Positions 5,993 to 25,318 of a stretch of 25,628 nt of DNA are shown one piece after another. The stretch is from a virus: IMG/VR virus record IMGVR_UViG_3300031976_001113, positions 1 to 25,628 of that record, one strand, 5' to 3'. Positions within the stretch are counted from its first letter, which is position 1. Each line of letters starts with the position of its first letter. The notes under the pieces were generated by a model that was not told the origin of the DNA, searched no databases, and saw only the letters and a list, made by a program, of their open reading frames with translations. The position numbers were made by a program, and so were the translations under genes.

Positions 5993-6493
5993 TTAGCTGT
6001 CGGCCTGGGCGCGCTTGACAGCGTCGAGCCATGACAGGCCGGGATTGGCCTGCTGCAAGACGACGGCGCGGGCGTGGAGATCAGCCTGCTCGGGATCGAC
6101 ATTATAGCCTTCCGGCGCGGCGAAGCTGACATAGGACTTGTCGCCGCCGGGCTTCTTGCCATGCTCGCCGAACGAGACGAGCGGCACAGCACTCTCGAAC
6201 AGCTTTTTGAGCGCGATGGCGGGAGCCATCTCACCGGCCTCGCCGAAACTTACGACAGCGGTGGCATCGAGATGGTCGAGAACCCCGATCAGCAGCCCCT
6301 TGCCAGCCGGGGCAAGCTTGCCGGCGGCGGCCAAGCCCTCAGCGAAGCTGACATTACCGTCATGGACGGCCTTCAAGGCAGAGGCCTTGGTCGCCTCTTC
6401 CCGCTCGGCGATGGCCGCCTCGCGCTGCGCCAGCGACTGTTCACGATCATTGAGCGCGGTTTCCCGCTCGGCGAAGCTCGCTTCTTTCGACAT
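5993..6493 (-). CDS. Internal-start scaffold protein (Mu gpZ-like)
   Basis: An in-frame ATG at 6493 inside the protease gene begins MSKEASFAERETALND, exactly where the protease domain ends and the coiled coil starts. GAAGAGG lies six bases upstream, a better ribosome site than the one before the full-length start. This would yield a 166-residue scaffold alone, as known for Mu gpI/gpZ. It is supported by sequence position and the known Mu precedent, not by direct evidence of expression. Confidence 0.6.
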   Translation of the reverse strand: MSKEASFAERETALNDREQSLAQREAAIAEREEATKASALKAVHDGNVSFAEGLAAAGKLAPAGKGLLIGVLDHLDATAVVSFGEAGEMAPAIALKKLFESAVPLVSFGEHGKKPGGDKSYVSFAAPEGYNVDPEQADLHARAVVLQQANPGLSWLDAVKRAQADS

Positions 6494-6967
6494 ATCTGCC
6501 TCTTCGGTGGATGGAAAATCGATGGTGGCGACGCCCCGGTCATCGCCTTCGGAAAACTGGACCGTGCCCAGCCCCTTGATGCCGGGCGCGGCCGCACCCA
6601 GGAAACCGATATGCTTCAGATACCAAACGCCAGGCTTCGGATTGGCGGGGTGCGCAGGCGGGTAGAAGCGGGCCGACACCTTGGGAAAGCGGCGCGCCCG
6701 CACCATTTCCGCGAAGCTCGGCTCGATATCGGAAGGCGTGGCGACCAACTCGCCACCCTGAAGGGCAAGCCCTGCAACCCAGCCATAAGCCGGATCATCA
6801 AGACGCGGATGGCCGACTACCAGCGGCGCCGGATCAGCGGAAGCATCATAGGCGGCAGCTGTCGCCGCCATCATTTCTTCGGTGAAGGAAACCTCGACAC
6901 CTTCGTTCGAGGTGAACTTGCCAACACGAGCAAGGCGAATGGTGGGGGGCGTCTGATCCATGACCAC
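5993..6967 (-). CDS. Mu gpI-like head maturation protease with C-terminal scaffold
   Basis: A 324-residue protein. Residues 1 to about 150 match the Mu gpI-type protease domain, with the blocks VVGHPRLDDPAYGWV (around 50-64) and VSARFYP (around 97-103), the likely active-site region. Residues from about 159 onward are scaffold-like: a long charged coiled coil (ERETALNDREQ, AQREAAIAEREE), then a helical C-terminus with PGLSWLDAVKRAQADS. In Mu the protease and scaffold share one gene and the scaffold is made from an internal start; the same arrangement is visible here. The protease processes the prohead. The ATG at 6967 is followed by a second ATG at 6961; neither has a strong ribosome site. 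Confidence 0.85.
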   Translation of the reverse strand: MVMDQTPPTIRLARVGKFTSNEGVEVSFTEEMMAATAAAYDASADPAPLVVGHPRLDDPAYGWVAGLALQGGELVATPSDIEPSFAEMVRARRFPKVSARFYPPAHPANPKPGVWYLKHIGFLGAAAPGIKGLGTVQFSEGDDRGVATIDFPSTEEADMSKEASFAERETALNDREQSLAQREAAIAEREEATKASALKAVHDGNVSFAEGLAAAGKLAPAGKGLLIGVLDHLDATAVVSFGEAGEMAPAIALKKLFESAVPLVSFGEHGKKPGGDKSYVSFAAPEGYNVDPEQADLHARAVVLQQANPGLSWLDAVKRAQADS

Positions 6968-9321: not shown

Positions 9322-9374
9322 GTGCCGCCTATCATAGACGCTTGGCGGAGTCTTGTTTACTCTGCGTTCACACC

Positions 9375-9386
9375 CCGAAAAATCGG
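9375..9386. promoter_or_regulatory. Operator O5 (CCGA-AAAA-TCGG)
   Basis: Fifth copy of the motif, in the gap between ner and the transposase, 36 bases before the transposase start. It suggests direct control of transposase expression or an enhancer-like function. Confidence 0.5.
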
Positions 9387-9421
9387 TGCAGCGTCAAATC
9401 GGCACGTTTCGGAGGCGCATC

Positions 9422-11236
9422 ATGAGCGCCATCGAGGGGCGAACCAAACATCTGAGCGCCAAGGAAATCGCCGAGCTGCGTCTGACAGGTCTGCCGACGA
9501 CCAAGAAGGGCGTTCAGCTTCGCGCCGATCTGGAAGGCTGGCCGTTCGAGTTGCGCACCGTGCGCGGCGGCGAGGCTCACTTCTATGACATCATAGGCCT
9601 GCCGGAGGCGGCGCGCGCCGATCTGATTGAAAGGCGAGCTGACGCCGCCCTGTCCGCCATGCGCCCGGTTGGCCGCCCCAAGGGCGACTGGTTCGATCGC
9701 CATCCCGAAGTCGCCGATGCGGTGTTGGTCATTCTGGCCGAACACAAACACGCGTCTACCCGCGTCATGGAACTCCTAAATGCGCAATTTGACGAGCTAC
9801 CGTCCCTGCGCAGCTTGAAGCGCTACATACAGCGGGTCGAGAAGGAGCATAAGGTTCTCCTCGCCGCCGAACGCGATCCCGACAAATACAAGTCGATGTA
9901 CCGCCCGGCGCTCGGCCGTATGGATGCCACCGTCTCCTACGCCCACGAAATGTGGGAGATCGACACCACCAAGGCTGACGTGATGTGCACCGATGGCCGG
10001 AAGGCGATCCTGGGCATCATCGACCGTTGGTGCCGTCGCACGCGCTTTTTGGTGGTCGAAAGCGAAAGCGCACAATCGGTCCGCACCATGCTGGTCAGTA
10101 CAATGCTGGCCTGGGGTGTCATGCCTGCGGTGCTGAAGGTCGACAACGGCTCGGGCTTCATCAACGCTTCGATCATCGCGTCGCTCGACGCTGTCGGCAT
10201 CAAGCTCGACGCCTGTCTTCCCGGTCACCCGGAGGACAAGCCGCACGTCGAGCGCGTGTTTGGCACCTTCAACCGCGAACGCGCTTCGATGCTAAAGGGC
10301 TTCGTCGGCCACAATGTGGCCCAGGCGCAGCAGCTGCGCGCCCGCGCAAAGAAGAAGACCGGCCGCGCCGTTATCGAAGCCGGGATCGACAGCATCGAGC
10401 TGCAGCGCATTCTCGATGCCTGGGTCGATGGCACCTACCACCAGCGCAAGCACAGCATGATCGGCATGTCGCCAATGGAGAAGTGGCAGCGCTCTCCCGA
10501 ACCGGCGCGGTCAGCGCCACCCGAAAGTCTCCTGAAGATCGCCTTCAGCGCGGTTATCGGCCCCGCTACCGTCACCAAGCGAGGCGTGCGCTGGAAGAAT
10601 GGCCGTTACTGGTCGGACACGCTTGTCCCGCTGATGGGCAAGCAGGTCATGCTTCGTTGGGATGAAGGCGACCTGGGCGCCCTCTACATCTTCGACGAGG
10701 CAGGCAACTACGTCGACACTGCCGTCAACGTCGAGCGCAAGGGCTTCTCCCAGCAGGCGATGGCGCTTGCCGCCCGCCGCGAAATGACAAAGTTCCTCAA
10801 CGAACAACGCACCGAGCTGCGGCAAAAAAAGGCATCCTTCTCGATCGAGAAGGCCATGGACACCGTCCTTCGCGACGAAGCCGAACGCGCTGGCAAGCTC
10901 GCTCATTTTCCCAGGCCAACCGAGGCGCGGGCGACACCGGCCATGGACAGCATCGCAAATGCGCCCGCCCCAGCCGTGCCCGACACTGCGCAGTTGGAGG
11001 CCATGCTCGCCAAACCTGCCGCACCCCGGCAGGCGCTCCGCACCCCCGCCGAGAAGATGGCGGAAGCCGACGCGATCATCGCCGCCCACAAACGGGGCGA
11101 GAGCGTCGACGCTGAGGCCCTGCGTCGGGCGCAGCTCTACGCCACCACCGCCGAATATCGTGCCGAGAAGATGATGGTCATCGCCTTCGGCGCGCCCGCC
11201 GCAGCCCCGGCTGATCGCCGCCAGGGGGCCGCATGA
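9422..11236 (+). CDS. MuA-like DDE transposase
   Basis: A 604-residue protein (Mu A is 663). The N-terminus (LSAKEIAELRLTGLP, EGWPFELR) is the Mu-type winged-helix DNA-binding domain, followed by a second helical DNA-binding region. The catalytic core has WEIDTTK (Asp181), KVDNGSGF (Asp241) and HVERVFGTF (Glu277), giving the DD35E triad of the retroviral-integrase superfamily. A C-terminal beta-barrel domain follows (around PLMGKQVMLRWDEGD), then a helical tail that in Mu contacts the B ATPase and ClpX. It cuts and joins the phage ends for integration and replicative transposition. The ATG at 9422 has GGAGG seven bases upstream; an upstream frame from 9353 is not supported. Confidence 0.95.
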   Translation: MSAIEGRTKHLSAKEIAELRLTGLPTTKKGVQLRADLEGWPFELRTVRGGEAHFYDIIGLPEAARADLIERRADAALSAMRPVGRPKGDWFDRHPEVADAVLVILAEHKHASTRVMELLNAQFDELPSLRSLKRYIQRVEKEHKVLLAAERDPDKYKSMYRPALGRMDATVSYAHEMWEIDTTKADVMCTDGRKAILGIIDRWCRRTRFLVVESESAQSVRTMLVSTMLAWGVMPAVLKVDNGSGFINASIIASLDAVGIKLDACLPGHPEDKPHVERVFGTFNRERASMLKGFVGHNVAQAQQLRARAKKKTGRAVIEAGIDSIELQRILDAWVDGTYHQRKHSMIGMSPMEKWQRSPEPARSAPPESLLKIAFSAVIGPATVTKRGVRWKNGRYWSDTLVPLMGKQVMLRWDEGDLGALYIFDEAGNYVDTAVNVERKGFSQQAMALAARREMTKFLNEQRTELRQKKASFSIEKAMDTVLRDEAERAGKLAHFPRPTEARATPAMDSIANAPAPAVPDTAQLEAMLAKPAAPRQALRTPAEKMAEADAIIAAHKRGESVDAEALRRAQLYATTAEYRAEKMMVIAFGAPAAAPADRRQGAA

Positions 11237-17965: not shown

Positions 17966-18505
17966 ATGGGGCGCAAATCGTCGATCAAAACCCTGCCGCC
18001 ACAAGTGCAGGCGGCTGTCGTCAAGGCGCTCGAAACAAGTGCGACGATTGATGAGATCGTAGCGAAGCTGGCGGAGCTGGGGCACACGCGGTCGCGCTCG
18101 GCGGTCGGTCGTTATGCCAAAGATTATGCCGAGATGGCTAAACACCAGCGTGATATCCGCGTGGTGGCAGAAGCCTTCGCCTCTGAGTTCGGCAGCGCCG
18201 ACAATGCAGAGGGCAAGTTCATGGTCCAGATGCTGACCAGTATCGGCGCTCGCATGATCCTGCCCATGGCGACGGGCGACGGGGAAGAGCTGGACGCACT
18301 CGATTTCCAACGCTTGGCCAAAGCCACCAAGGACTTGCTGTCATCCGCCAAGCTTGACGCGGAGCGCGACGCGCGCCTGCGCGAAGAGGCCAAGAGGGAA
18401 GCCCAGGAGGAAATGCGCCGGAAGCTCGACGCTGCTGGTCACCAAGGGCGGATCGACCCCACTGCGATGGCCGAGGCGCGGCGCATTCTGGGCTTTGGCG
18501 AGTAA
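17966..18505 (+). CDS. Small terminase subunit (DUF3486, Mu gp27-like)
   Basis: A 179-residue protein starting MGRKSSIKTLPPQVQAAVVK, the DUF3486 signature opening (basic start, LP-x-x-V). It then has a helix-turn-helix (TIDEIVAKLAELGHTRSRSAVGRY read in two parts), a long helical oligomerisation region and a charged C-terminal helix ending ARRILGFGE. The protein recognises phage DNA for packaging and loads the large subunit. The gene precedes the large terminase with a one-base TAATG-type overlap. Confidence 0.85.
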   Translation: MGRKSSIKTLPPQVQAAVVKALETSATIDEIVAKLAELGHTRSRSAVGRYAKDYAEMAKHQRDIRVVAEAFASEFGSADNAEGKFMVQMLTSIGARMILPMATGDGEELDALDFQRLAKATKDLLSSAKLDAERDARLREEAKREAQEEMRRKLDAAGHQGRIDPTAMAEARRILGFGE

Positions 18506-19977
18506 TGGCCGACCGCGCCTTTGGCGATGAGCTGCAACGCCTCATCCACTTCCATCCCTATCAGCAGGCGTGGCTTGCCGATCAGAGCCGGTTCAAGGCC
18601 GGCATGTTCTCGCGCCAGACCGGCAAGACCTTCACCACATGCGCAGAACTGGTCGACGATTGCATCAGCGCGGAACTCACTGGAAAGCGCACACGCTGGG
18701 TCATCCTCTCGCGCGGCGAACGTCAGGCGATGGAGGCGATGACGGAGAACGTCAAGCCAATGACGCGGGCCTTCTGGGCGCTCTACAACGGATTGAAGGG
18801 TGCGCCGCCCGAAGTCGTCGAAGGTGAGTTCCGTGGCGAGACAACCGATGCCACCTATCGCACTTACGAGGTGATGTTCCCTAGCGGCTCGCGTATCACC
18901 GCGCTGCCAGCCAATCCCGACACGGCGCGCGGCTTCTCCGCCAACGCGGTGCTTGACGAGTTCGCGTTCCACCAGAACAGCAAGGCCATTTGGGGAGCGC
19001 TCTTCCCCGTAATTTCCAAGGGATGGAAGCTGCGCGTCATTTCGACGCCCAATGGCAAGAGCAACAAGTTCTACGAGATCATGACCGCGACCAACTCGAT
19101 CTGGTCGCGGCACATGGTAGATATTTATCAGGCGGTCAGGGACGGCCTCGACCGCAATATCGACGAACTGCGCGCCGGCATGAGCGACGCGGACCTGTGG
19201 GCACAGGAATTCGAGCTGAAGTGGCTGGACGAAGCGACGGCCTGGCTCGACTTCGACCTCATCAACAAGGCCGAAACCCCTGGCTACGGCCGGCTGCGCG
19301 TCATCGAATATACCGAGGGCGTCAAGACCAGGGATGACATTACGGGCGAGCCGATCGGGCCGACCAACGCCGAAGTTTTCGTCGGCATGGACATCGCCCG
19401 CAAGAAAGACCTCACCTGCATTTGGGTCGCCGAAAAGTTAGGCGACACCCTTTATCCTCGCGAGATCATTACAATGCGGCGGGCGCCCTTCCAGGCGCAA
19501 ATGCAGATACTTGCCGAGGTCATCCAGCGCGACCGTGTCTCACGCGCCTCGATTGACGAGACCGGCATGGGCCTCCCGTTCGTCGAGCAGGCGAAGGGTT
19601 TGCTCGGCAAATTCAGGATTGAAGGCGTCACCTTCACTCTGCCCGCGAAATTCGCGCTGGCGACGATGCTCAAGGATCGGATGGAGGATCGCAAGTTCCG
19701 CATTCCGGCCGGCGACATCTACCTGCGGGACGATCTGCATTCGATCACCAAGGCGGTCACCGCCACGGGCGCCGTCAGGCTGGTCCATGACGGCGAGAGC
19801 GACGGCCACGGTGACCGCTTCTGGGCGGCCGCACTCTGCGTCAACGCGGCGGGCGAATATGCTGGACCGATCGAAGTGCATCCCCTCGGCCAGATGCGCA
19901 GTGCCGCCTCCGAAACCCTAATCACCACCACCGGCTTCGGCACCATCCGACGCCGGCCCAGCGGACTTTACTTTTGA
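18505..19977 (+). CDS. Large terminase subunit (Mu gp28-like)
   Basis: A 490-residue packaging motor. The ATPase half has a Walker A variant SRQTGKT (36-42, Lys41) and Walker B AVLDEF (Asp151, Glu152). The nuclease half shows the RNase-H-like acidic set: VGMDIARKKD (Asp296), IDETGMG (Asp351) and a late GDRFWAAA (Asp437). The enzyme cuts phage plus flanking host DNA headfully and pumps it into the prohead through the portal. The length is typical. It sits between small terminase and portal, with overlapping starts and stops on both sides. Confidence 0.92.
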   Translation: MADRAFGDELQRLIHFHPYQQAWLADQSRFKAGMFSRQTGKTFTTCAELVDDCISAELTGKRTRWVILSRGERQAMEAMTENVKPMTRAFWALYNGLKGAPPEVVEGEFRGETTDATYRTYEVMFPSGSRITALPANPDTARGFSANAVLDEFAFHQNSKAIWGALFPVISKGWKLRVISTPNGKSNKFYEIMTATNSIWSRHMVDIYQAVRDGLDRNIDELRAGMSDADLWAQEFELKWLDEATAWLDFDLINKAETPGYGRLRVIEYTEGVKTRDDITGEPIGPTNAEVFVGMDIARKKDLTCIWVAEKLGDTLYPREIITMRRAPFQAQMQILAEVIQRDRVSRASIDETGMGLPFVEQAKGLLGKFRIEGVTFTLPAKFALATMLKDRMEDRKFRIPAGDIYLRDDLHSITKAVTATGAVRLVHDGESDGHGDRFWAAALCVNAAGEYAGPIEVHPLGQMRSAASETLITTTGFGTIRRRPSGLYF

Positions 19978-22055
19978 TGGCCCAGCGACCCGCCCCCTAT
20001 CGCTCCACCCGCACGCCCGCCAAGGCACTCAGGCCCTCGGCCGAGCTGCTGACGGAGATCGCGACCACGCGCGATGGCCGCGACATTACGCAGCCGTGGG
20101 TGCGTGGCCTGCGCGAAGCCAAAGACCCTAAGCTCTCTACCTCCGTCGATTGGGGAGCCTACGATGTCGTCTTCAACGACGACCAGGTGAAATCGACGAT
20201 GCAGCAGCGCATCGGCGCCGTCGTGTCGCGGGATTGGAACGTGCTTGCCGGCGACGATGAAGACCCCCGCGCCGGGAAGGCTGCCGAAGCCTTCAACCGG
20301 ACTCTGATGCGGCTGCCCTGGGACCGCATCACTCGCAAGATGCTGATGGCGACTTTCTACGGCTATAGCGTCGCGGAACTGATGTGGGGGTATCGCGATG
20401 GCCTGCTCGACATCACAGACATCAAGGTCCGCCATGCGCGGCGTTTCCGGTACGACGACGAAGATCGCCTGCGGATGCTCACGCCGACGAACATGCAGGG
20501 CGAAATTCTGCCGGAACGGAAATTCTGGGTCCATTCCGTCGGCGCGGCCGATGACGATCAGCCCTACGGTCAAGGCTTGGCCTATTGGCTCTACTGGCCG
20601 ACGCTGTTCAAGCGCAACGGCATCCGCTTCTGGAACGTCTTTCTAGACAAGTTCGGGACGCCCACGGCGATCGGCAAATATCCGCGTGGGGCGACCCGCG
20701 AAGAACAAATGAAGCTGCTCGCCGCCCTCCAGGCGATTGCAAACGACAGCGGCTTCATCGTGCCCGAAGACGTTGCGGTCGACCTGCTTAAGGCCGCCAC
20801 ATCGGGCACGACCGACTTTCACACGCTCTGCCTCTACATGGACTCAGCCATCAGCAAGGTCGTGCTGTCACAGACGATGACCACGGACAACGGTTCCTCG
20901 CGCGCCCAGGGCGAGGTCCATGCCGATGTCAAGTTGGAGGTGGTCAAAACCGACGCCGACGATCTGACCGATAGTTTTACCGATCAGGCGGCGCGCTGGT
21001 GGACCGATTTCAATTACGGTGCAGATGTGGCCGCGCCGATCGTCCGTCGCATCGTCGAGGAACCCCAGGATACTCAAGCCCAGGCGACCACTGATAAGAC
21101 GCTGGCCGATCTGGGCTGGGTCCGCACGAAGGAGAGTTTCGAGGATACCTACGGGGAGGGGTTCGTTCGCCGCGACGACCCCGACGCTCCATCCGGCTCC
21201 CAGCAGCAGCAGACCCAACCTCCTGAACAACTCGGCCACAATGGCGGCCCGCCGCTGGATGATGCAAATTCGCTGCAACCCGGCAAGGTGGTCAGCTTTG
21301 CCGCTGACGATCCCCGTCCGCTTTACGTCTATCGCCAGCTCCTCAACGCCAGTGAATTGCTGGATTGGGCACGCTCGCAGGGCTTCACATCGACCATGCC
21401 GGCCGAGCAGTTGCACGTCACGGTCACCTATTCCAAGCGGCCGGTGAACTGGTTTGCCATGGGCCAGTTCGGCTCCAACAGCGGAGAGGTTATCGTTGGT
21501 CCCGGCGGCCCTCGTTTGATCGAGCGAATGGGCGACGGCAGTGCAGTTGCGCTGCTGTTCCAGTCCACGGACCTGCAATGGCGTCACCGCGAGATGCGCG
21601 ATGCAGGAGCAAGTTGGGATCACCCCTCCTACCTTCCCCACGTCACCCTGACCTATGAAGCCAGCGACCGCGATCTGGCCGAGATCGAACCATATCAGGG
21701 TCGCCTCGTGTTCGGCCCGGAGCGGTTTGAGGCGATCCAGGAGGGCTGGAAGGAATTGGTGGCCGAAACAGCCCCCGCCGCCAGCTTCGCCGAAAGCGAC
21801 GACGATGGCCACGATGACGCAGACAGCGTCGTCGACCGCATGATCGCAGAAGACGGCTATCGCGTGGCCAATGCCATCACAGGCACCATCGTGGATCGCC
21901 TGCTTAGCGCCGACAGTGAAACAGAGGCCCGCGCGATCCTTGCCGGTGCGCTCGGCGTCATGGACGATGTCCCGCTCATCCAGGCGCTGGAGCGGGCCGG
22001 CTTCGCCGTTCAACTCGACGCGGCCGCCCAGCCGGCGGCCGAGGTCGCGGAATGA
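19977..22055 (+). CDS. Portal protein (DUF935, Mu gp29-like) with inserted Acb1-like 2H domain
   Basis: A 692-residue portal, much longer than Mu gp29 (about 510). Residues 1 to about 410 are the DUF935 portal: GAYDVVFNDDQVKSTMQQRI, DWNVLAGDD, FYGYSVAELMW, the FRFD-like RRFRYDDEDR and QTMTTDNGSSRAQG. Then come a Gln/Pro linker and the GHNGGPPLDD motif seen in alphaproteobacterial phage proteins. Residues about 438-590 form a 2H phosphodiesterase-like domain with QLHVTVTYS (His480, Thr482) and LPHVTLTYE (His555, Thr557). The last 90 residues return to a portal-like helical tail. 2H domains include the Acb1 anti-CBASS enzymes, which cleave cyclic nucleotide signals. ATG 19977 is chosen; TTG 19974 is possible. 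Confidence 0.85.
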   Translation: MAQRPAPYRSTRTPAKALRPSAELLTEIATTRDGRDITQPWVRGLREAKDPKLSTSVDWGAYDVVFNDDQVKSTMQQRIGAVVSRDWNVLAGDDEDPRAGKAAEAFNRTLMRLPWDRITRKMLMATFYGYSVAELMWGYRDGLLDITDIKVRHARRFRYDDEDRLRMLTPTNMQGEILPERKFWVHSVGAADDDQPYGQGLAYWLYWPTLFKRNGIRFWNVFLDKFGTPTAIGKYPRGATREEQMKLLAALQAIANDSGFIVPEDVAVDLLKAATSGTTDFHTLCLYMDSAISKVVLSQTMTTDNGSSRAQGEVHADVKLEVVKTDADDLTDSFTDQAARWWTDFNYGADVAAPIVRRIVEEPQDTQAQATTDKTLADLGWVRTKESFEDTYGEGFVRRDDPDAPSGSQQQQTQPPEQLGHNGGPPLDDANSLQPGKVVSFAADDPRPLYVYRQLLNASELLDWARSQGFTSTMPAEQLHVTVTYSKRPVNWFAMGQFGSNSGEVIVGPGGPRLIERMGDGSAVALLFQSTDLQWRHREMRDAGASWDHPSYLPHVTLTYEASDRDLAEIEPYQGRLVFGPERFEAIQEGWKELVAETAPAASFAESDDDGHDDADSVVDRMIAEDGYRVANAITGTIVDRLLSADSETEARAILAGALGVMDDVPLIQALERAGFAVQLDAAAQPAAEVAE

Positions 22056-22285
22056 GCTGGCACGCAAATATGGGCCATGCGCCTGTCTTCTATCCCGATC
22101 AGCCGGACCAGCCGTGCCCGCCGCACCTGCTCGCTGAAAGCGAAGCATCGGGCGCGCGGGTTCGGGTCCGGCTGCGTAATGGCCGTGAGCCGGATGAAAG
22201 TTGGCCCATAGCCGGCCGCCCTATTCCTACTCGTTGGACGCTGATCGGTAGCGACTTCGACATCATCGCATGGAGGCGGGCTTGA
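22052..22285 (+). CDS. Small hypothetical protein after the portal
   Basis: A 77-residue protein (MSWHANMGHAPVFYPDQPDQ opening), proline-rich at the start, then a basic beta segment (GARVRVRLRNGREPDESWPI) and a WTLIGSDFDIIAWRRA ending. It overlaps the portal stop (ATGA) and the next start. The pattern of a short beta-rich domain with conserved Trp residues is like small proteins seen beside phage head genes, but I do not recognise a family. Confidence 0.6.
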   Translation: MSWHANMGHAPVFYPDQPDQPCPPHLLAESEASGARVRVRLRNGREPDESWPIAGRPIPTRWTLIGSDFDIIAWRRA

Positions 22286-22956
22286 CCAGCATGAATGGCG
22301 CGCTCCTGGCGAGGATCAGGAAGTGCCTCGCTCTGGCGAAATCTTCCAACGAGCACGAGGCGGCGACCGCGCTGGCAAAAGCTCGCACGCTCATGGAGGA
22401 ACATGGTGTTTCAATGGACGACATTGCCATGTCGGAAATCGGAGAGGCCAAGGCTAAAGGCTCCACCACCCAACGGCCGCCGCTCTGGGAGACTGCCCTC
22501 TGCATGACCGTTCGGCACGCGCTCGGCTGCAAGGTGATCATCGACGCCGATCTGCACCGCATTTACATCGGCCCCGGTCCCGCGCCAGAGATCGCCTCCT
22601 ACACCTTCGTTGTCCTCTTCCGGCAACTCAAGTCGGCACGGCAGGAATATATCCGCCTGCACCTCAAACGGTGCCGCCCTGGTCGCAAGCGCCAACGCGC
22701 TGATATTTTCTGCGAGGCTTGGGCAAAGGCGGTTTACAGTAAGGTGAAGGCTCTAATGCCAGCCGTTCCCTTACATGCAGCGACCGACCAATATATTGCG
22801 CGCCGGTTCGATAGTCTTGTCGAGGTAGGCAATCGCAGCGCCTCGCTCAAAGGCAGCCGGCTCGAAAATGACTATTGGCGCGGGCACCAAGCCGGTCGCT
22901 CAATCGACCTTTCACAGGGCGTTGATGGCAGCGCCGCTCGGTTGAGGCTCGCATAA
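22282..22956 (+). CDS. DUF2786 domain protein
   Basis: A 224-residue protein. Residues about 5-45 (ARIRKCLALAKSSNEHEAAT then ALAKARTLMEEHGVSMDDI) are a clear DUF2786 domain. The rest is a basic mixed region (YTFVVLFRQLKSARQEYIR, CRPGRKRQRADIFCEAWAKA) that resembles the second domain often following DUF2786, and a C-terminal end with GHQAGRSIDLSQGV. The biochemical role is unknown. TTG 22282 is preferred because GGAGG lies six bases upstream and it overlaps the previous stop (TTGA); ATG 22291 is the alternative. Its place between portal and gpF is not part of the Mu core order, so it is an insertion. Confidence 0.75.
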   Translation: MTSMNGALLARIRKCLALAKSSNEHEAATALAKARTLMEEHGVSMDDIAMSEIGEAKAKGSTTQRPPLWETALCMTVRHALGCKVIIDADLHRIYIGPGPAPEIASYTFVVLFRQLKSARQEYIRLHLKRCRPGRKRQRADIFCEAWAKAVYSKVKALMPAVPLHAATDQYIARRFDSLVEVGNRSASLKGSRLENDYWRGHQAGRSIDLSQGVDGSAARLRLA

Positions 22957-24185
22957 TGGCCGACAGCTTGGGCTATTCGATTTTCCTGAAGCCAGATGAC
23001 GTTGTTCGCGCCTTTGAGACGCGCGACGCACTTCAGCCAACTGTCCGCTGGTCGGAGATGATGCATGAAAATCATGCAGTCGCCTTCACCGTCGCGAAGA
23101 TCGCCAAGCTCGATCTCTTGCGCTCGGTCCAGATGTCGATCGACGATGTGTTGCGCAACGGCGGGACATTCGAGGAATGGAAGGGTGCCATCCTCCCCGA
23201 ATTGAAAAAAGCCGGCTGGTGGGGTTCCGTCACCAATGCCGAACTCACCGGCACGCCCGACACCGTCATAGTCAATAATCGCCGGCTACGAACGATCTAC
23301 AACACCAACGTCCGCATGAGCATGGCGTCGGGTCATTGGGCGCGCATCCAGCGGCAGAAGGATATCTATCCATATCTCCGCTACCTGCCTTCAACTTCCG
23401 AACACAAGCGGCCGCTCCACAAGACGTGGTACGGCATCCTGCTGCCCGTGGACCATCCCTTCTGGCAAACGCATTTTCCGCCCAATGGCTGGGGCTGTAA
23501 ATGTCATTTCGAGCAGGTCAGTGAGCGCAAGATGAAGCGCATGGGCTGGACCGTCACGCCCGATAAAGAACTGCCGCAAGATTCGCGCGTCTTTGTTGAT
23601 GCCACCGGCCGTCAATTGAATGTGCCCGCCGGTATCGATCCCGGCTTCAGCTACAATCCCGGCACCGCGCATCTGCGGGCCGTCGCGGCGAAGGCCGTGG
23701 CATCCCTGCGCGCCGCCACCGACTCGGGCATGGAGGCAGTCGCCGATGCGACGCTGCGCGAAATTGTGGCGGATGCCGCCTTTGACCAATTCCTAGGTGC
23801 CCCCCATGGGGCCTTCCCCGTCGCCATTCTCGATCCGGCGCAACAGGCGGCAATGCAGGCTCGCAGCCGCGTCATCGTTATGCCCGAGGGCGTTTATCGG
23901 AAACAGCGCGGGGACATGCCGGCCATCTCGCGTGGGCACCCGGAACTGACGCCTGACAACTACCGCCTTCTGCCGGACATTGTGGCGCGCGCTTTGATCA
24001 TCGCGCAGCAGGGCGACAGCAAACTGATCTTCTTCGCTGATGCAGCCGGGAACATCTGGAAAGCGGTCGTCCGGCAGGACATTGGAGACGATCTTCCCGT
24101 GCTGGTCAGCTTCCATCGCAGCCGCCCGCGCAACGTCGCCGCTGAGACCCGTAACCTGACCATCCTTGTGGATCGACGTCAATGA
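22956..24185 (+). CDS. Mu gpF-like head morphogenesis protein with C-terminal BECR-type nuclease domain
   Basis: A 409-residue protein. Residues 1 to about 220 are the phage Mu F-like minor head domain: FEEWKGAILPELKKAGWWG, TIYNTNVRMSMASGHWAR, YLRYLPSTSEHKRPLH and the HFPPNGWGCKCHFEQVSERK block with Cys181 and Cys183. This protein acts at the portal vertex during prohead assembly. Residues about 280-409 form a separate domain (HGAFPVAILDP, SRGHPELTPDNYRLLPDIVA, KLIFFADAAGNIWKAVVR, VLVSFHRSRP) that resembles the phage BECR (Barnase-EndoU-colicin-RelE-like) nuclease domains known at the C-termini of such head proteins. The active residues are not assigned with certainty. The gene overlaps its upstream neighbour by one base. 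Confidence 0.85.
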   Translation: MADSLGYSIFLKPDDVVRAFETRDALQPTVRWSEMMHENHAVAFTVAKIAKLDLLRSVQMSIDDVLRNGGTFEEWKGAILPELKKAGWWGSVTNAELTGTPDTVIVNNRRLRTIYNTNVRMSMASGHWARIQRQKDIYPYLRYLPSTSEHKRPLHKTWYGILLPVDHPFWQTHFPPNGWGCKCHFEQVSERKMKRMGWTVTPDKELPQDSRVFVDATGRQLNVPAGIDPGFSYNPGTAHLRAVAAKAVASLRAATDSGMEAVADATLREIVADAAFDQFLGAPHGAFPVAILDPAQQAAMQARSRVIVMPEGVYRKQRGDMPAISRGHPELTPDNYRLLPDIVARALIIAQQGDSKLIFFADAAGNIWKAVVRQDIGDDLPVLVSFHRSRPRNVAAETRNLTILVDRRQ

Positions 24186-24523
24186 TGTGCGGAGCGATGC
24201 GCGGCAGGGACTTCCTGTCCCCTGCTAAGCAGTCAACGGCCAGTAGCCTCGCGCTACGGAGGGAAGAATTCACCGCGTCGCGCGCATCGCTGGCTTTATA
24301 TAGCCCCAACGGCGGCCATTTTCAATTCACCGCCGATGGGCGGGGGATGGGGCGCGCCAACGCCCCAAGCCGACGGTCTCGACCCGTCACGATCTGGCTG
24401 GCCAAAGCCGAAATCATCCCGCCATCCAACGCTGGACGGCGCGATCAAATAGAGAACATTGTGAAAGAGTCGAGTCCGTTTTCAGGGTCGCCGCAGGCGG
24501 CCTGCAATGACCATGCACATCAC
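24186..24523. other. 338-bp region between gpF and the methyltransferase core
   Basis: The frame stays open from an ATG at 24182 that overlaps the gpF stop, but the encoded 114 residues are low in recognisable structure, and the methyltransferase core begins only after 24524. It contains a bulged hairpin GCAGGGAC-TTCCT-GTCCCCTGC (24204-24225) and TTTATATAG near 24295, a possible -10-like element. It is either a leader with its own promoter, or an N-terminal extension of the methyltransferase. Confidence 0.45.
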
Positions 24524-25318
24524 ATGCAGCCCGTTGCGCCGGTGCGCCCTGTCGCCCCGTACATCGGCGGGAAGCGTAATCTGGCAAAGCGAGTTATCGC
24601 CCGCATTAATACCATTCCTCATGAGACCTACGCGGAAGTGTTTGTCGGCATGGGCGGCATTTTCCTGCGGCGCGACCTCCGACCATCGGCCGAGGTCATC
24701 AACGACTGGTCGGAGGATGTGTCGACATTTTTCCGTATCCTGCAGCATCATTATGTCGCGTTCCTGGACATGATCCGTTTTCAGATCGCATCGCGCGCAG
24801 GGTTTGAAAAGCTGCTGGCCACAGACCCTCGCTCGCTCACTGATCTGCAAAGGTCTGCCCGGTTTCTATATCTGCAACGCCTCGCCTTTGGCGGCAAAGT
24901 AGATGGCCGGACCTTTGGCGTCGCACCGACCCGTCCCAGCCGCTTTGATGTCACGAAGCTCGCACCGATGCTGGAGGCCCTCCATGAGCGGCTGGCAGGG
25001 GTCACCATAGAACGGCTGCGATGGCAGGACTTCCTGCTTCGCTATGATCGACCGGGCACGCTCTTCTACCTCGACCCGCCCTATTTCGATTGCGAAGGTG
25101 ATTATGGCTCGCAGATGTTCGGGCAGGACGAATTTGCCGAAATGGCAGAGCGGCTGGCAGGCCTGAAAGGGCGCTTCATGCTCAGCCTGAATGACCACCC
25201 GAAGGTGCGCGAACTGTTCGGCCGGTTCAGCATGGAGGAGGTCCGCACAACCTATCATGTGAGCGGCAATGGCAAGGCTCAGCCAGCCCGCGAATTGATC
25301 ATCAGCGACCCGGCCTGA
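24524..25318 (+). CDS. D12-class N6-adenine DNA methyltransferase
   Basis: A 264-residue enzyme by the preferred start (MQPVAPVRPVAPYIGGKRNL). PYIGGKRNLAKRVIARI is the N-terminal SAM-binding motif of Dam-like D12 enzymes, YAEVFVGMGGIFLRRD is motif I, YLDPPYFD (DPPY at 184-187) is catalytic motif IV, and HVSGNGKAQPARELIISD is the usual C-terminal block. It transfers methyl from S-adenosylmethionine to adenine in DNA; the target sequence cannot be told. A frame to ATG 24182 would add 114 residues without known motifs. No partner restriction enzyme is visible. Like mom of Mu, it is near the right end and may protect phage DNA from host restriction. Confidence 0.85.
   Translation: MQPVAPVRPVAPYIGGKRNLAKRVIARINTIPHETYAEVFVGMGGIFLRRDLRPSAEVINDWSEDVSTFFRILQHHYVAFLDMIRFQIASRAGFEKLLATDPRSLTDLQRSARFLYLQRLAFGGKVDGRTFGVAPTRPSRFDVTKLAPMLEALHERLAGVTIERLRWQDFLLRYDRPGTLFYLDPPYFDCEGDYGSQMFGQDEFAEMAERLAGLKGRFMLSLNDHPKVRELFGRFSMEEVRTTYHVSGNGKAQPARELIISDPA

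Follow-up and report, generated by a model that had tools for sequence, protein, structure and literature searches.

An Acb1 phosphodiesterase domain between the core and tail of a Mu-type portal protein, a candidate for delivery with the phage genome

The portal locus and the inserted domain

The window, a 25.6-kb virus record, belongs to a transposable phage as judged by its gene content in Pfam and PHROG profile searches. A Mu-type transposase (9353-11236, plus strand; PHROG 310, E = 4.7e-84; Pfam Mu-transpos_C) marks it as such and is followed by the gene for a DNA transposition protein. The plus strand also carries a late activator, TerS and TerL, and a minus-strand block at about 1-7 kb encodes the head protease, the major capsid protein, a head-tail adaptor, and neck and tail proteins. 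The portal gene (19977-22055, plus strand) encodes 692 residues from an ATG, with a TTG one codon upstream (19974), and overlaps the stop codon of the terminase large subunit gene (18505-19977, plus strand; PF03237/PF17289). The gene downstream (22956-24185, plus strand; PF04233, E = 1.5e-13) encodes a MuF-like minor head protein that is extended at its C-terminus. The TerS, TerL and MuF neighbours fit a Mu-type portal. We regarded an ORF on the opposite strand (20868-22148) as a shadow of the portal's own reading frame.

Several neighbouring features can be observed. A DUF2786-DUF7168 protein (PHROG 421) is encoded between the portal and MuF genes (22270-22956). Effector domains are frequent at the C-terminal extension of MuF proteins; in the window this extension (23640-24182) is without a Pfam match. 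The gene directly 3' of MuF encodes a D12-class adenine DNA methyltransferase (24182-25318), perhaps another counter-defence gene next to the portal. An equally long ORF also follows MuF in loci L004, L005 and L101, the last being a Sphingobium faniae prophage and the closest named relative of the window, with 86% identity in the Acb1 domain.

The portal consists of three parts. Residues 63-394 form the Mu-type core (20160-21155, plus strand; PF06074 Portal_Mu, hmmscan E = 2.9e-102), which also matches the Mu (9khx) and JBD30 (8rka) portals in phmmer searches. It is followed by an Acb1 (2H phosphodiesterase) domain at residues 449-594 (21318-21755, plus strand; PF23474) and by a helical C-terminal tail of 86 residues (21795-22052, plus strand), homologous to the tails of Mu-type portals that lack Acb1. 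Those portals consist of core, linker and tail, and their tail aligns with that of the window portal; because the insert-free relatives read in this order, the Acb1 insertion is, on sequence comparison, optional and placed between core and tail. A sequence-only reading of this DNA had proposed a 2H domain at 21285-21750, between a DUF935 core and a portal-like tail. Both the arrangement and the position, correct within a few bases, hold. Structure prediction for the full-length portal was poor (pLDDT 50).

The assignment of the insert rests on profile, sequence and structure searches. It matches PF23474 with 134.4 bits against a curated cut-off of 27, covering profile positions 2-143 of 144 (142/144), and PHROG 755, the T4-like 57B family (4e-21). 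A sequence search of the PDB returned the Pam3 portal (8hds, residues 471-616; 1e-34) and FBB1 Acb1 (7t26; 3e-9). The AlphaFold model of the domain has a mean pLDDT of 86.5 (39 alignment rows), and Foldseek ranks Acb1 7t26/7t27 and then Acb1 9q2y/9q2g before E. coli LigT, so that the five best matches are all of the Acb1 family. With E = 3e-39 for PF23474 and nearly full-length profile coverage, the 2H fold and the Acb1 family, both claimed in the sequence-only reading, stand far beyond chance, and the structural comparison with Acb1 that it had suggested led to Acb1 itself (7t26/7t27).

Both catalytic motifs are present. The first HVT (21414-21422, plus strand), with H480 and T482 counted from the ATG (H481/T483 if the TTG is counted), aligns with H44/T46 of T4 Acb1; the second (21639-21647, plus strand), with H555/T557 (H556/T558), aligns with H113/T115. 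The HxT/HxT tetrad of T4 Acb1 is thus intact, and the stretches in which it had first been recognized, QLHVTVTYS and LPHVTLTYE, are indeed both in the portal frame with their histidines 75 residues apart. In T4 Acb1 the ligand is bound by the aromatic stackers Y12, W74, F107 and W147, with E141 contacting the adenine (PMC9117128). Y12, E141 and W147 align with identical residues in the window domain; clear counterparts of W74 and F107 were not found in the alignment, where they face E517 (in an uncertain region) and H550.

Across 48 relatives, neither of the catalytic histidines nor the first threonine varies, and the last position is T or S. Compared with near relatives, the Acb1 part has dN of 0.09-0.20 and dS of 1.2-1.5, and the portal core behaves alike; these rates indicate strong purifying selection on the domain. 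Given the fold, the tetrad, the kept Y12, E141 and W147, the invariant positions and a dN far below dS, the insert is a maintained and probably active enzyme, the activity being a prediction from sequence and model. We consider it likely that CBASS signals are among its substrates.

Candidate protease sites around the insert

The insert is bracketed by two similar motifs that we predict to be head-protease sites. SFAA (site 1; 21294-21305, plus strand) lies just before Acb1, and SFAE (site 2; 21783-21794, plus strand) just after it. With a slash for each proposed cut, the borders read VVSFAA/DDPRPLYV and AASFAE/SDDD. Across 13 relatives, conservation is 0.37 for the linker before Acb1 versus 0.89 for SFAADDPR, and 0.26 for the linker after Acb1 versus 0.88 for SFAE. 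In the same comparison of linkers, locus L054 has no clear bracketing motifs. A different linker motif, LGHNGGPPLDD (21231-21263), was considered as a signal and set aside for lack of conservation in the nearest relatives; GHNGGP also occurs close to the beginning of several other ORFs, one of capsid size in each of L010 and L107 and others in L053, L113 and L138.

The head maturation protease/scaffold of the window (5993-6967, minus strand; PHROG 976, E = 2.4e-82) contains six SF[AG][EA] motifs (enrichment P = 0.001): SFAE, the commoner form, three times, SFGE twice and SFAA once. A PHROG 976 match is present in 15 of the 16 related genomes or records; the Pfam Mu-like protease PF10123 gave no match in the relatives, and the protease was recognized instead as PHROG 976 on the minus strand. 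Out of 21 Mu-like phages, 19 show an excess of F[AG][EA] in their protease/scaffold ORF (P <= 0.003). Counted in the portal by itself, the motifs are no more frequent than chance would give (P about 0.2).

The motifs in the portal linker and in the scaffold change together between lineages. EFAE is found in both proteins of JBD18 and of L172 (lineage L172/L176), ALQAQ in both of L171 (L171/L182) and AALSA in both of Mu. Lsp-JY19 pairs EFAA in the linker with xFAA in the scaffold, FAA being the general scaffold motif there. We quantified this with a 4-mer permutation test that names no motif, applied to 12 Mu-like lineages, some of which had been inspected before the test was written. The portal tail and the protease/scaffold of the same phage share 58 4-mers, against 30.3 expected from mismatched pairs (P = 0.00015, a value to be weighed against that prior inspection); in the same lineages the excess is absent for the portal core (P = 0.76) and for MuF (P = 0.47). 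For DUF1073 portals with Acb1 the covariation test was negative (P 0.41-0.62), although it is blind to a motif common to all lineages.

T4 gp21 cleaves after [LI]-x-E (PMC9026906) and SPN3US gp245 after A-x-E (PMC10052503), and by analogy FAE would have a similar cut-site shape. The JBD30 portal has its crown and wing within the capsid, and the scaffold of this phage is cleaved by the prohead protease (PMC11445458). Mu virions are reported to lack the last 124 residues of gp29, a loss that the authors credit to protease I (PMC11915804). The solved portal chains comprise 405 of 526 residues in JBD30 and 369-383 of 512 in Mu, so that about 120-140 are missing. In Mu (L145; 555-2093 and 4057-5142), gp29 has AALSA at residues 427-431, and protein I/Z has LSA six times, AALSA among them. 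AALSA is thereby a candidate motif of the Mu head protease and a candidate boundary of the gp29 C-terminus lost from virions. The motif covariation would in this way also predict cleavage sites of Mu-family head proteases, and the AALSA site bears on the fate of the missing C-terminus.

On their position, conservation and covariation, SFAA and SFAE are probable prohead-protease sites. Cleavage at one or both is somewhat favoured. Site 1, which is FAA and not FAE, may be poorly cut or uncut, leaving Acb1 on the portal. The sequence-only reading had placed the enzyme on every virion, and as worded this is not supported: crown and wing are inside the head, the C-terminal part of gp29 is absent from the Mu virion, and the insert lies between the two probable sites. 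For these reasons Acb1 is more likely an internal cargo that is cut loose than an enzyme on the virion surface.

Acb1 fusions to head proteins

Acb1 occupies the same place in the Mu-type portals of 20 of the collected loci. In a sample of 151 genomes from the family of L101, nine have a strong Mu-type portal match. Frames of the size of the fusion, about 700 codons, are present in 2/9, and Acb1 was confirmed in both (L101 and L170); the remaining portals consist of core, linker and tail without Acb1. No Mu-type Acb1 fusion is among the best matches listed from 50,697 phage records.

Other carriers can be observed. Acb1 is fused to DUF1073 portals (PF06381) in about 100 of the collected loci, at their C-terminus, as the sequence-only reading had stated. 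HK97-type portals (PF04860) carry it in L042 and L013 and, by similarity, in L071, L111 and L112, and an XkdF-type protease domain does so in L032 and its relative L079. In L012 (3566-5110) a MuF/SPP1 gp7-like minor head protein has Acb1 inserted at its middle, and in L129 (2199-4055) a DUF2213 head maturation protease carries it at the N-terminus. Two proteins combine Acb1 with a Gp49/RelE-like toxin domain (L092, 3851-4882; L122, 5851-6882), which puts a toxin on the same chain as an enzyme that destroys signals, and a single chain in L039 (1848-4223) consists of a DUF1073 portal, Acb1 and then a PBECR3 nuclease domain. Nearly all carriers of Acb1 fusions are prohead proteins. A standalone Acb1 gene adjoins the portal in Edwardsiella phage ZHS (L019, 2116-2712), where it is annotated as a prohead protease, as is the Acb1 of DSS3P8 (L018); both are probably misnamed.

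In a tree of the domains, those from Mu-type portals cluster with two from DUF1073 portals (85/94), within a large set of DUF1073-portal domains. Not all branches are firm, and the topology suggests that Acb1 moved between portal families. CD-NTase genes (PF18144, above the cut-off) are somewhat commoner in fusion-carrying genomes than in those of two host families (9 of 32 against 41 of 351; P = 0.014), a comparison that is weak, confounded and only suggestive, as isolates rich in mobile elements may have more of both.

A possible delivery route and its relation to known systems

With the family, fold, catalytic residues, selection, tail position and motif covariation established, we propose that Acb1 is a cargo in the tail of a Mu-like portal that is freed in the head, co-ejected and destroys alarm nucleotides, a reading to which we give a probability of roughly 0.5. 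Portal assembly would place about 12 copies of Acb1 inside each prohead. The head protease would cut at the flanking SFAA and SFAE, as in its own scaffold, yielding a 443-residue portal, a 163-residue Acb1 (18.3 kDa) and an 86-residue tail. The freed enzyme would leave the head with the DNA, like the internal proteins of T4, and hydrolyse cyclic di- or trinucleotide alarm signals, of CBASS or a similar system, in the next host. Copies that are still unassembled could also work in the producing cell. Delivery with the DNA is a tentative step in this sequence. Equally provisional is the broader idea of the portal tail as a cargo slot, in which an anti-CBASS enzyme is held between two cut sites at about 12 per head, matured and injected with the genome; if it is true, the same logic would apply to other Acb1 fusions to head proteins.

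It is possible, if unlikely, that the enzyme acts late in the cytosol, in full-length or unassembled portal and with no delivery by the virion, the flanking motifs serving only to clear the head interior. The evidence for an enzyme (PF23474, residues, fold) is identical, the portal is synthesized late and in the cytosol, and the standalone Acb1 beside the ZHS portal is a case in which timing of expression rather than fusion could matter. However, this leaves unexplained why Acb1 was repeatedly fused to proteins of the prohead interior (three portal families, MuF and head proteases) and why motifs like those of the scaffold bracket the domain.

A quite improbable alternative keeps the fold and changes the substrate to 2',3'-cyclic phosphate RNA ends or 2'-5' oligoadenylate, or makes the domain an RNase effector aimed at the host, the kind of role initially put forward for fusions like this one. 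The chemistry of the 2H superfamily is broad, LigT structures come next after Acb1 in the fold search, and Iyer et al. 2017, in the relevant passage, preferred RNase or 2'-5' oligonucleotide roles (PMC5512222). Against this, the domain matches the Acb1-specific Pfam model and keeps Y12, E141 and W147, and T4 Acb1 and 9/9 further homologues were active on cGAMP and cAAA (Hobbs et al., PMC9117128).

Cleavage at site 2 only would leave 12 copies of Acb1 tethered to the portal crown inside the head, in a role that is structural or linked to the DNA, whether or not catalysis persists. Such an outcome would agree with FAA at site 1 and FAE, the commoner form in the window scaffold, at site 2, and with the DUF1073 portals, which bear Acb1 as their extreme C-terminus. 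We regard it as rather improbable, as FAA is the general scaffold motif in Lsp-JY19 and as the Pam3 portal 8hds, the nearest PDB sequence, is yet not among the best 50 fold matches of the domain. Because it is missing there, the Acb1 part of 8hds appears to be unmodelled in the virion structure, which suggests that it is not rigidly held. Decay to a functionless cargo, for which we found no point in favour, is extremely improbable given the strong purifying selection and the invariance of the histidines and first threonine in 48 relatives.

The idea of the sequence-only reading, a 2H enzyme against CBASS signals carried on the portal, is not new in outline, since the relevant passage of Iyer et al. 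2017 already describes 2H domains fused to MuF or portal, the same kind of architecture as here, with degradation of defence nucleotides as one suggested option (PMC5512222). That passage predates Acb1, leaves the portal family unnamed and does not mention bracketing protease motifs. Relative to the literature surveyed, novelty lies in the assignment to Acb1 of a domain in a Mu-type portal, in its insertion before the tail, in the several head-protein carriers, and in the evidence for bracketing protease sites with the release model.

To our knowledge, the anti-CBASS enzymes studied to date are standalone and made after infection. An Acb1 loaded into the head would act before any phage gene expression and destroy the alarm signal as soon as infection begins, by a simple and countable delivery route through the portal.

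The window domain has in common with T4 and FBB1 Acb1 (PF23474; 7t26, 7t27) the family, the fold, both HxT motifs and Y12, E141 and W147. While those enzymes are standalone proteins of about 150 residues, the domain described here is a portal insert in which E and H align with W74 and F107. The DUF1073 portals (PF06381) of phiPSA1, Pam3 (8hds) and Rhizobium and Synechococcus phages likewise carry Acb1 on the portal, and the Mu-type domains nest among theirs in the tree; they differ in belonging to another portal family, in having the domain at the extreme C-terminus with no portal tail behind it, and in the negative result for cut-site covariation. In MuF polymorphic toxins the effector domain is carried by a portal-associated head protein (Jamet et al. 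2017, PMC5576092). They comprise a toxin on MuF and an immunity gene, whereas the carrier in the window is the portal and the domain is Acb1, a counter-defence enzyme and not a toxin, so that we do not place the locus in that class.

The proposed route has a parallel in T4 IPI and Alt and in the Dar proteins of P1, which are packed in the head, trimmed by the protease and ejected, and which can then act against defences or bring the host under phage control (PMC9026906, PMC12810830). These proteins use their own genes and targeting sequences, while in the window the carrier is the portal and delivery is proposed. As with the T4 internal proteins, the phage encodes its own head protease (PHROG 976), and the likeness lies in the suggested route, from prohead precursor through cleavage by the head protease to ejection with the DNA.
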